From the IMG/VR virus record IMGVR_UViG_3300034190_002544, positions 1 to 28,849 of that record: a DNA stretch of 28,849 nt; one strand, 5' to 3'. The DNA is from a virus. The notes below the pieces were generated by a model. The model ran no database searches and was not told the DNA's origin. It saw only the letters and a program-made list of their open reading frames with translations. A program made the translations under genes and the position numbers. Below, one piece after another: positions 23,466 to 26,788 of the stretch. Each line of letters opens with the position of its first letter. The stretch's first letter is position 1.

Positions 23466-23600
23466 TCAGAAAGTTGGGTACATTGCATGTTTGAATTCAC
23501 TAATGCGTTGTGCTTCTTTGTGCAAACCTTTGTTGCGTAGTTCTCTAATTGCCATGCAGTATGAGCGATATTCCATTGCTTTTAAAAATCTTTTTAACAT
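23466..23600 (-). CDS. 44-residue protein, last gene of the atpE cassette
   Basis: Reading the minus strand, ATG at 23600 is preceded by AGGGAA and the frame runs 44 codons to TGA. The protein is basic and helical. Residues 17-33 (AIRELRNKGLHKEAQRI) resemble residues 39-55 of the 61-residue protein encoded at 24047-24232 ([17 protein letters not shown]): an A-x-x-E-L-x-x-x-G-x-x-x-E-A pattern. It begins 1 nt after the upstream stop, consistent with an operon. Function unknown. Confidence 0.7.
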   Translation of the reverse strand: MLKRFLKAMEYRSYCMAIRELRNKGLHKEAQRISEFKHAMYPTF

Positions 23601-23601
23601 A

Positions 23602-23823
23602 TTATATTCCCTTACAGTCAAAGAGTGACTTTTCTAATTTTACTGGTACACCGCCCTTTGCGATACATACTTCTGACCAGTTTGGTTGTTTGTATTTGTC
23701 AATCACAGCATAAAATCCAAATGCTATGCAAATTAATATCAACGATGTCATTGCCACGAAAGCATAGAAGCCCGTGCGTTCTATTACTTCCGAGGTCATC
23801 GTTACATTCTGGTCGCCTATCAT
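23602..23823 (-). CDS. Small single-span membrane protein downstream of atpE
   Basis: 73 residues. A hydrophobic helix at about 20-42 (FYAFVAMTSLILICIAFGFYAV) is followed by a soluble C-terminal segment with two cysteines (C53 and C69, in VCIAKGG and LFDCKG), which could form a disulfide if exported. The ATG overlaps the atpE stop (TAATG), so translation is probably coupled. No family is recognised; close pairing with the c subunit suggests related membrane function. Confidence 0.75.
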   Translation of the reverse strand: MIGDQNVTMTSEVIERTGFYAFVAMTSLILICIAFGFYAVIDKYKQPNWSEVCIAKGGVPVKLEKSLFDCKGI

Positions 23824-24050
23824 TAGGCTACAACAGCGAACATTAATAGTAATGCTACTAAAAAGGCAAAGATGCCTAGTGCTTCAGCAAACGCAACACC
23901 AACGAACATTGTTCCTGTGTCACCTTTCTTAGGCATAACTTTAAGTACACTACCAACAATCATTCCTACTGCGATGGCAGCGCCACCCATTCCGAATGTT
24001 GCTAGTCCAGCGCCAATATAAGCACCCATCATTGCGATATCACCACTCAT
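23823..24050 (-). CDS. atpE: F-type ATP synthase subunit c homologue
   Basis: 75 residues forming a two-helix hairpin. Helix 1 contains [19 protein letters not shown] (11-29), matching the Gly/Ala-rich packing helix of c subunits. Helix 2 contains [18 protein letters not shown] (54-71), with E56 in the place of the proton-carrying carboxylate (Asp61 in E. coli). It most resembles alphaproteobacterial and mitochondrial c subunits. The polar loop reads [10 protein letters not shown] (37-46) and lacks the R-(Q/N)-P motif that contacts gamma and epsilon. A GGGAG Shine-Dalgarno sequence lies 8 nt upstream. No other ATP synthase gene is present, so it would have to join host c-rings or act alone. 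Confidence 0.93.
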
Positions 24051-24232
24051 TTGTTGTCTCCCAACATAAGTGCTTTTGCTTCTTCTGTGTAACCCAAACG
24101 GTGTAATTCAGCAGCCGCTCTTGCTCTGCCTGCTGACTCGCCAAATGCCCATACGCCCATTGCAAATGCAATTAAGCCTCTACTTACTACCTTACCTAAG
24201 TTAGATGTTTTATTCATTACTAGTGTAGTCAT
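24047..24232 (-). CDS. Small hydrophobic-helix protein upstream of atpE
   Basis: 61 residues. One moderately hydrophobic helix at about 18-31 ([14 protein letters not shown]) is followed by a charged helix with the A-x-x-E-L-x-x-x-G-x-x-x-E-A pattern shared with the 44-residue protein at the end of the cassette. A strong AGAGGAG precedes the ATG. It overlaps atpE by 4 nt (ATGA) and the DUF1127 gene by 1 nt. Short proteins of this kind occur in alphaproteobacteria, so it may be host-derived; function unknown. Confidence 0.78.
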
Positions 24233-24468
24233 TATACTGCTCCTCTTAGATTTTCATTTACTGTTAATTCTAAATCTTCAGATTGCAGACGCTCTGGTTT
24301 GTTATAAGAATTGATTGCAACATTATAAATCTCGCCTCGTGAAATTCCTATGTCATTCAATTCATGGTTTGTAAGTTCTGACAATTCTTTGATTGTTTTG
24401 CGAACTTTATTTCTATAGTCCCATTGGGTTCTAAAATTTTTATATGCTACTACTAGTCTATTGATCAT
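24232..24468 (-). CDS. DUF1127 (YjiS-like) small protein
   Basis: 78 residues. Residues about 18-47 (YRNKVRKTIKELSELTNHE, then LNDIGISRGEI) match the DUF1127 signature R-x-x-x-x-L-x-x-L-(S/D)-x-x-x-L-x-D-I-G-(L/I)-x-R. DUF1127 proteins are small, basic and especially numerous in alphaproteobacteria; some are linked to RNA turnover and to phosphate or stress physiology. The C-terminal 30 residues are an acidic extension. AAGGAA upstream supports the start. It is a probable host acquisition. Confidence 0.85.
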   Translation of the reverse strand: MINRLVVAYKNFRTQWDYRNKVRKTIKELSELTNHELNDIGISRGEIYNVAINSYNKPERLQSEDLELTVNENLRGAV

Positions 24469-24945: not shown

Positions 24946-25869
24946 ATGTTAGTAAAAGGTAAAGTTCTGGTAACGGGCGGCGCAGGTTTTGTGGGTAGAG
25001 AAGTTGTCCGGCAATTATTAAGAAAAGGCTATGATGTAACTGTTTTGGATATCGCTGAAAAGCCTGATGACTTTAAAATGGTTAATTATATTAAGGGTGA
25101 TGTACAAAAAGCTGCTAAGTGTATAATGGCGACTGCTGGAAAAGATTTTGTTATTCATCTTGCAGCAAAGACACGAATACCAGACAGTTTTATTGATCCT
25201 GACTTATATTTTGATATAAATGTTACTGGTACACGTAATATGTTGACCGCAGCACACGCAGTAGGTATTCGTAAATTTGTGTTTGCAAGTTCATCAAGTA
25301 TATATGGAAATAATCCAATTCCACATAAACCATTTCATAAACCAGATCCACTAAATTATTATGCAATGACCAAGTTATTCGGTGAGCAATTATGTAGACA
25401 ATATAAAAATGTTTTTGGATTGAATTATAATGTATTGAGATTTTTCACAGTATATGGAGATGAACAACCATCTGATGATCATAATGGATTAATGATTAGT
25501 AGATTTTATCGTATGGCAAATGAAAACATTCCATTGACAGTTCATGGTGATGGTGAGTATAGAAGAGATTACATACACGTTAGTGATGTAGCACGTGCTT
25601 GTATTGCGAGTATGGAGTCTAAAGTAAAGAGTGAAATTTTTAATGTAGGCACAGGTGAAAACGTTTCAGTAAATCAAGTTGTTGAAATATTACGAGAGTT
25701 TTTTCCTAATTTAAAAGTAGAGAACCAAGAGAAGCCTAAAGGTTATGCAAGTGAAACACTTGCTGACATAGTTAAAGCAAAAAAACTTCTTGGATGGCAC
25801 CCGACAGTTGATATTTCAAATGGTATCAGAGAACTTTATAGTACAAAGAAAAAAATTAATGAAACATAA
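24946..25869 (+). CDS. NAD-dependent sugar-nucleotide epimerase/dehydratase (extended SDR)
   Basis: 307 residues. The NAD-binding motif TGGAGFVG lies at 10-17, followed by GDV at 51-53, HLAA at 71-74, the Ser cluster FASSSSIYG at 113-121, and the catalytic Y139-x3-K143 (YAMTK). It belongs with UDP-glucose/glucuronate 4-epimerases, but the exact substrate cannot be decided. In this phage it may supply a sugar for the glycosyltransferase at 21625 or alter host surface polysaccharide. It overlaps the CDF transporter gene by 11 nt. Only weak purines precede the ATG. Confidence 0.92.
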   Translation: MLVKGKVLVTGGAGFVGREVVRQLLRKGYDVTVLDIAEKPDDFKMVNYIKGDVQKAAKCIMATAGKDFVIHLAAKTRIPDSFIDPDLYFDINVTGTRNMLTAAHAVGIRKFVFASSSSIYGNNPIPHKPFHKPDPLNYYAMTKLFGEQLCRQYKNVFGLNYNVLRFFTVYGDEQPSDDHNGLMISRFYRMANENIPLTVHGDGEYRRDYIHVSDVARACIASMESKVKSEIFNVGTGENVSVNQVVEILREFFPNLKVENQEKPKGYASETLADIVKAKKLLGWHPTVDISNGIRELYSTKKKINET

Positions 25870-26788
25870 TCAGTATCATATAAGAAAAGCAGGCAAAGAA
25901 GAACGTGCATTAAAAATAAGTATTTTTATCTTAGTCTTATTTGTGGGCATTGAATTATTTGGCGCATACATAAGTAATTCTTTAGCATTATTAAGTGATG
26001 CATTGCATCTTTCGACGGATGCATTGGCAATGATTATCGCAGTATTTGGATTTTGGATAGGTCGAAAACCTCCCACTGAAACTTACTCGTATGGATTTAT
26101 GAGAGCCGAAGTCATTGCTGCCTTTTTAAATGCGTTAATGTGGATATTACTATTTGCATATATAATATATGAAGCCATATATAGAATATTAAATCCTGAG
26201 CCTGTTGACATATATTGGATGTTGCCAATCGCAATCACTGGGTTGTTTGTTAATTTAATATTATATAAAGTTGTGCATCATCATCATGATGGCCATAATA
26301 TTAATATGCGAGGAGTGATACTACATATCTTGTTGGATATTCTGGGAAGTGTCGGCGCAATTATTGGTGGTATTGTTATATACTTTACTGATTGGTATTA
26401 TATTGATCCAATTATAAGTGTAATTCTTGCCAGTTTGATATTAAAAAGTGGTTGGGAACTATTAAAAGATTGTCTTAGAATACTAATGACAGGTAAACCA
26501 AATCATATCGACATTGATGTTATAGTAAAAGATATTATGACAAATGTAGATCATGTTAATAATATTCACCATATACATATATGGGAATTAGCAAGTGGGC
26601 AAATTTCAGCCGCTATGCACATTAATATATTGGATGATGGCGAATGTGATGATACAATATATAATACCAAAAAACTATTAATCGATAAATATAAAATAGT
26701 TCACACTACAATTCAGATTGAACATAGTAATTGTCCAGATGAAGAATTGTTTTATACTAAATTAACAGAGGAGAAACAAAATGATTAA
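25859..26788 (+). CDS. Cation diffusion facilitator (Zn-type) membrane transporter
   Basis: 309 residues from ATG 25859; an earlier in-frame start would lie inside the epimerase gene. About six hydrophobic segments (near 19-37, 42-67, 86-107, 120-138, 152-176, 183-200) are followed by a soluble C-terminal domain (about 210-300). The transport site is intact: H50-x3-D54 in TM2 (SDALHLSTDA) and H156-x3-D160 in TM5 (HILLD), the tetrahedral HD-HD set of zinc transporters. A His-rich loop H140-H-H-H-D-G-H146 lies between TM4 and TM5, and HHIHIWELASG (237-247) is typical of the cytoplasmic domain. The family exports Zn2+ or similar ions by proton antiport. It appears complete, which is notable in a phage. 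Confidence 0.94.
   Translation: MKHNQYHIRKAGKEERALKISIFILVLFVGIELFGAYISNSLALLSDALHLSTDALAMIIAVFGFWIGRKPPTETYSYGFMRAEVIAAFLNALMWILLFAYIIYEAIYRILNPEPVDIYWMLPIAITGLFVNLILYKVVHHHHDGHNINMRGVILHILLDILGSVGAIIGGIVIYFTDWYYIDPIISVILASLILKSGWELLKDCLRILMTGKPNHIDIDVIVKDIMTNVDHVNNIHHIHIWELASGQISAAMHINILDDGECDDTIYNTKKLLIDKYKIVHTTIQIEHSNCPDEELFYTKLTEEKQND
26684..26692 (+). promoter_or_regulatory. Possible internal late-type box GATAAATAT
   Basis: GATAAATAT inside the transporter gene, 88 nt before the 55-residue membrane protein. It also encodes the residues IDKYK, so chance cannot be excluded. Confidence 0.3.

Follow-up and report, generated by a model that had tools for sequence, protein, structure and literature searches.

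The window, that is, the whole stretch of viral DNA that was analysed (28,849 nt), is a 28.8-kb fragment that carries on its minus strand a run of five small genes whose junctions overlap or nearly touch. Read 5′ to 3′ on that strand, the run consists of a gene for a DUF1127 protein (24232..24468; PF06568, E 3.1e-11), tm61 (24047..24232), a gene for a 75-aa homologue of the F-type ATP synthase c subunit (23823..24050), tm73 (23602..23823) and b51 (23466..23600). The tm61 gene codes for a small protein with a 16-letter protein motif and, in the window's clade, a predicted membrane helix. The tm73 product is, by its structure model, a membrane protein with a single helix and, at its C-terminus, a C..GGVP..DCK domain, and b51, the last gene of the run, would code for a small basic, clade-specific protein of 44 aa from an ATG at 23600. 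The DUF1127 stop codon overlaps the tm61 start (TAATG), the tm61 stop overlaps the c-subunit start (ATGA), and the tm73 start overlaps the c-subunit stop (TAATG). The c-subunit ORF begins with ATG, preceded directly by a Shine-Dalgarno-like GGGAGA stretch, and is predicted to be translationally coupled to tm73. A promoter and terminator scan gave results no better than those from shuffled sequences.

No convincing Pfam or NCBIfam family was matched by tm73 or tm61, and a search for their relatives in 115 alphaproteobacterial genomes gave nothing beyond one weak match. Rhodobacter CcaF1, which is related to DUF1127 proteins, binds RNA (PMC11707872).

Identity and fold of the c-subunit homologue

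The initial annotation had described the ORF as a phage-borne ATP synthase c subunit, and profile, structure and viral-contig searches all bear this out. The entire PF00137 (ATP-synt_C) profile was matched by residues 12-69, with 41.9 bits (E 1.2e-10) against a curated threshold of 24 bits. When a profile of the phage family was compared with the PDB, the best match was 5dn6, the ring of Paracoccus denitrificans (E 8.7e-27). AlphaFold2 modelled the window protein as a hairpin (helix 2-37, loop, helix 45-74) with a mean pLDDT of 78, and Foldseek again placed 5dn6 first, at 51% identity and a probability of 1.00, but with a weak E of 0.03 for this short hairpin. Identity to cellular proteins reached 67%. 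A different two-helix family devoid of the helix-2 carboxylate was considered and rejected on the PF00137, PDB profile and fold matches, and we classify the predicted product as a true F-type c-subunit homologue. No family in the PHROG library corresponds to it.

The phage proteins share with the AtpE of Rhodobacterales and related marine alphaproteobacteria the two-helix hairpin, the Gly/Ala helix 1 and the helix-2 Glu in AEALGIF. Unlike Rhodobacterales AtpE, which has an RNP loop, the proteins of the window clade have no RNP and a loop that is 5 residues shorter. The phage gene also differs in standing alone, outside any atp operon, and in its predicted coupling to tm73.

The viral family, its hosts and its origin

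At least 84 distinct IMG/VR contigs from 74 metagenomes proved to carry the phage c subunit when 2.9 million viral contigs were scanned; the queries were an alignment, the window protein and a divergent relative. The median dN/dS among 52 distinct genes was 0.086 (923 pairs), and we consider the family to be under strong purifying selection. A chance ORF is excluded by the number of contigs and metagenomes together with this dN/dS value. The relatives lie on contigs of up to 221 kb, the longest of which (G003) carries genes for a T4-like terminase, portal, tail sheath, gp43 polymerase, UvsX, gp41 helicase and topoisomerase. A chimeric contig or a piece of host DNA was also rejected: three contigs from other metagenomes (L036, L037 and L002) share the gene cassette and the adjoining epimerase gene, so that independent assemblies agree, and G003 is a T4-like phage. 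The c-subunit gene has the features of a moron or auxiliary metabolic gene, being host-derived, located in bona fide phage genomes, and present or absent among close relatives.

An alphaproteobacterial-type permuted tmRNA (alpha_tmRNA, RF01849) was detected in 15 of 21 phage contigs, from which we infer alphaproteobacterial hosts. In G003 this tmRNA lies at L422:2768-3076, with the tag peptide ANDNYKPSGFALAA as read by ARAGORN; the remaining detections are in 14 other contigs.

The initial annotation had suggested a tree with alphaproteobacterial AtpE. In the maximum-likelihood tree, built on 78 columns, 36 short-loop phage proteins formed one group (100/99) and nine long-loop proteins another (99/100), and both clades fell inside the AtpE of Rhodobacterales and related marine bacteria. 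The two clades may share a single origin, with which the 78-column tree is compatible, as it is with separate ones. When ~50,700 phage records of sequenced isolates were searched by tblastn with two queries, a search weakened by the low-complexity filter, no convincing relative was observed; a query that found no relatives among these isolates still matched a copy on a Pseudorhodobacter plasmid. The sole match of a DNA search was an 80-nt stretch of the DUF1127 gene with Roseobacter phage CRP-7 (MK613349), in which it falls in the gene of a hypothetical protein, CRP7_gp71 (L326:932-1120; 75% DNA identity over the 80 nt).

The proton site and the replaced loop

The helix-2 carboxylate, E56 (codon at 23883..23885, minus strand), and the whole AFAEALGIF stretch that contains it were unchanged in 52 of the 52 distinct phage genes, so that the proton site read as intact from the window alone is intact throughout the family. 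The Gly/Ala packing residues of helix 1 (G13, A14, G15, A17, G22, A24, A25 and G33) were also invariant. Sodium-type c subunits have a Gln in helix 1 and a Ser/Thr after the Glu; this ligand pattern was absent from the phage c subunit. The pN/pS ratio was 0.063 in helix 2, 0.147 in helix 1 and 0.24 in the new loop, and the last of these values shows that the new loop, too, is constrained.

In alignments, residues M39-P40-K41-K42-G43-D44 (codons at 23919..23936, minus strand) occupy the position of RNP in cellular relatives (ALRNP in cells), with 5 residues of the cellular loop missing in the window clade. The motif [RQ][NQ]P was found in none of the 52 phage genes, compared with all 112 cellular c subunits, 59 of which were Rhodobacterales-like AtpE from a genome search and 53 of which came from alphaproteobacterial genomes sampled evenly across the class. 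All 59 of the former had RNP; in the even sample, R-x-P was present in 48 and QQP in five. The initial annotation had singled out MPKKGD as an altered gamma/epsilon-contact loop and had suggested searching viral contigs for homologues; the alteration is confirmed, and extends to every distinct gene recovered by that search.

Mean identity between the short-loop phage clade and cells was 82% for helix 2, 59% for helix 1 and 5% for the loop, a segment that is 90% identical among cellular c subunits. The second phage clade has a loop of full or nearly full length with other sequences (AMPHRS, LVKGAN), which is 33% identical to that of Rhodobacterales AtpE, with helix 2 at 82-84% identity between phage and cells. 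Most of its members retain the proline and the loop length. When scored against the NCBI equivalog PRK07558 (NCBIfam, subunit C), the window protein remained below the cut-off (59.1 vs 85), and the long-loop relative L070 was above it (90.1 vs 85). The proline, the loop length and the L070 score suggest that the long-loop clade might still dock F1. A canonical-loop host AtpE, used as query against the 2.9 million viral contigs, matched only the phage c family, and no canonical-loop viral copy was observed. Since the only family matched was the loop-altered one, loss of the loop appears to accompany viral life.

These results bear on whether the phage protein could stand in for the host c subunit and so maintain or increase ATP synthesis in the infected cell, its loop being a tolerated variant or one that adapts ring size. 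Such a role would agree with the conservation of most of the protein, with the intact proton site and with the score of L070. It is nevertheless improbable, because the loop is the most replaced region of the phage proteins, yet carries its motif in every cellular c subunit sampled, because the window protein lies under the equivalog cut-off, and because the searches turned up no canonical-loop phage contig.

Gene neighbourhood and proposed role

Across 78 loci, the DUF1127 gene was present in 75, tm73 in 74, tm61 in 70 and b51 in 36, and the DUF1127 gene occurred once per contig in 20 of 20 contigs tested. Every contig recovered with the tm73 profile carried the c subunit (64/64). Among 61 relatives anchored on hsp20 and with enough sequence, the DUF1127 gene was found in 61, tm61 in 59, and the c subunit together with tm73 in 15, the c subunit being counted with trimmed query ORFs. 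Alignment of close relatives revealed one clean gap of ~345 bp that corresponds to the c subunit plus tm73, with flanks that were mostly 86-93% identical. Short tm73 matches persist at several loci without the c subunit, and these look like remnants of loss. A single obligatory DUF1127-tm61-c-tm73 cassette was rejected, since most close relatives have the DUF1127 gene and tm61 without the c subunit. The arrangement is best described as an optional pair, the c subunit and tm73, beside a steadier genome part formed by DUF1127-tm61.

The strict co-occurrence of tm73 and the overlap of its coding sequence with that of the c subunit would also be expected if the hairpin were a mere partner or anchor for tm73 (and for tm61 and the DUF1127 protein), without any proton chemistry. 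We regard this as very unlikely: a scaffold has no need of the buried carboxylate and its surroundings, which are kept in every member.

The run was found in different contexts: 3′ of regA and hsp20 and 5′ of gene 43; after uvsX, gp41 and a phrog_455 gene; and near IMPDH. Across the family the c-subunit gene neighbours the clamp loader, regA and gp43 genes, or uvsX and gp41, with no recognised lysis genes, and the gene order suggests that it is expressed within the replication programme. A holin-like function, which the initial annotation had offered as an option, is weakened by this setting. Both a holin and an ATP-boosting role are disfavoured.

A gene for a cupredoxin of the plastocyanin/azurin family immediately follows the run in 14 loci (L052:6608-7030; also L003, L005-L009, L027, L030, L041, L043, L049, L067 and L074) and lies within 2 kb of it in three more. 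Its product has a signal-peptide-like start, and the copper-ligand residues are intact by eye. The position of this gene beside the run hints at a further link to respiration. Transport and metabolic genes were also observed. Near the cassette, the window carries genes for an NAD-dependent epimerase (24946-25869) and a CDF-type cation efflux transporter with a ZT_dimer domain (25790-26788). At L071:2175-5378, ABC transporter genes resembling those of phosphate uptake (PBP_like_2 and two BPD_transp_1) are divergent from the cassette, and a 133-kb phage contig carries a gene for a PnrA/Bmp-like substrate-binding protein (L035:9468-10547).

Subunit a (PF00119) was detected in 0 of 20 contigs and gamma (PF00231) in 0 of 21, the window included, these contigs being fragments; the earlier statement that no other ATP synthase gene is present holds for these two subunits. 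Because the phage contigs are without subunit a or gamma, any partners must be those of the host, and phage c presumably acts either with host partners or alone.

We propose, with a probability of about one half, that phage c, captured from a host, still packs into rings and faces the host's subunit a without supporting normal coupling to F1, and that it poisons or uncouples the host ATP synthase. A T4-like phage lineage would have taken the c subunit from a marine alphaproteobacterium and kept it in modified form, retaining the ring-packing helix 1 and the helix 2 that faces subunit a, and discarding the cytoplasmic loop on which gamma and epsilon dock. Expressed from among the replication genes and coupled to tm73, its membrane partner, the protein would insert into the host membrane and there join host c subunits, pack against the host's subunit a, or do both. 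In a ring that includes phage c the central stalk would be held badly, so that proton flow through Fo would be uncoupled from F1, or the enzyme would be blocked. The phage would gain control over the proton gradient and the ATP economy of the host while it replicates, for example through faster, uncoupled respiration, or by stopping ATP hydrolysis by F1 when the gradient falls.

That phage c would still face subunit a and neighbouring c subunits is argued from the frozen helix 2, and that F1 would not be held normally from the replacement of the loop which, according to Hermolin et al. 1999 as cited in PMC5376962, binds F1 epsilon in the E. coli c subunit. Entry into host c-rings with uncoupling or retuning of ATP synthesis fits this pattern of selection, in which helix 2 is frozen and the loop replaced. 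Invariance of helix 2 is, however, also expected for a homomeric phage-c ring. The c subunit is dispensable in many close relatives, and this counts against the poisoning or uncoupling proposed here. We also put forward, tentatively, that phage c and tm73 could act as a viral device dedicated to uncoupling oxidative phosphorylation, by forming rotor rings that work with the host's subunit a and are free of F1. If true, such rings would let the phage run uncoupled respiration, or shut the ATP synthase, at will.

An F1-free oligomer of phage c, perhaps with tm73, might instead leak protons or larger ions and thereby lower the membrane potential, exclude superinfection or prepare lysis. The free human c-ring acts as a large voltage-gated channel, which F1 and its central stalk close (PMC9433415), so that a phage c without stalk binding would lack this gate. 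The tm73 gene occurs only with the c subunit, and the pair adjoins gene 43 in some contigs. In T4, the small membrane immunity gene imm is also located near gene 43. A plain pore, however, needs neither a constant carboxylate nor a helix-2 side that faces subunit a, the genes around the run are replication rather than lysis genes, and ion conduction by c-rings is disputed (a controversy discussed in PMC9433415). An independent ring is the main rival to our proposal, and we consider it unlikely.

That phages can carry genes supporting the energy metabolism of their hosts is well established. A phage protein that retains the proton carrier of the rotary motor but has lost the link to the ATP-making head would, if true, be a case of a virus attacking chemiosmotic coupling. 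Phage c is widespread in metagenomes and small enough for laboratory testing, and constitutes a natural experiment on the purpose of the conserved c-subunit loop. Among the metabolic genes of ocean viruses, Hurwitz et al. 2013 include 'complex V', with named virus examples (PMC4053976), and these entries, like the present ones, are ATP synthase genes in viral sequences. In the part of that text that deals with complex V, the subunit is unnamed and no c subunit with an altered loop is described. A literature search that mostly covered sources other than subscription journals did not turn up any published phage family of c subunits, in keeping with the earlier remark that no example had been characterised, and the family is probably novel.

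Phage c resembles T4 imm and the holins of T4-like phages in being a small phage membrane protein, and we know of no sequence relation between it and either of them; it differs from them in being a genuine homologue of the c subunit and in its position outside the lysis genes. T4-like cyanophages keep host-derived genes of membrane bioenergetics, such as psbA and plastocyanin. The products of those genes keep the interfaces with their host partners, whereas in phage c the part that docks the partner has been removed. Host-derived bioenergetic genes in phages are thus already known; what is new here is a pattern of kept and removed interfaces that points to interference with coupling.
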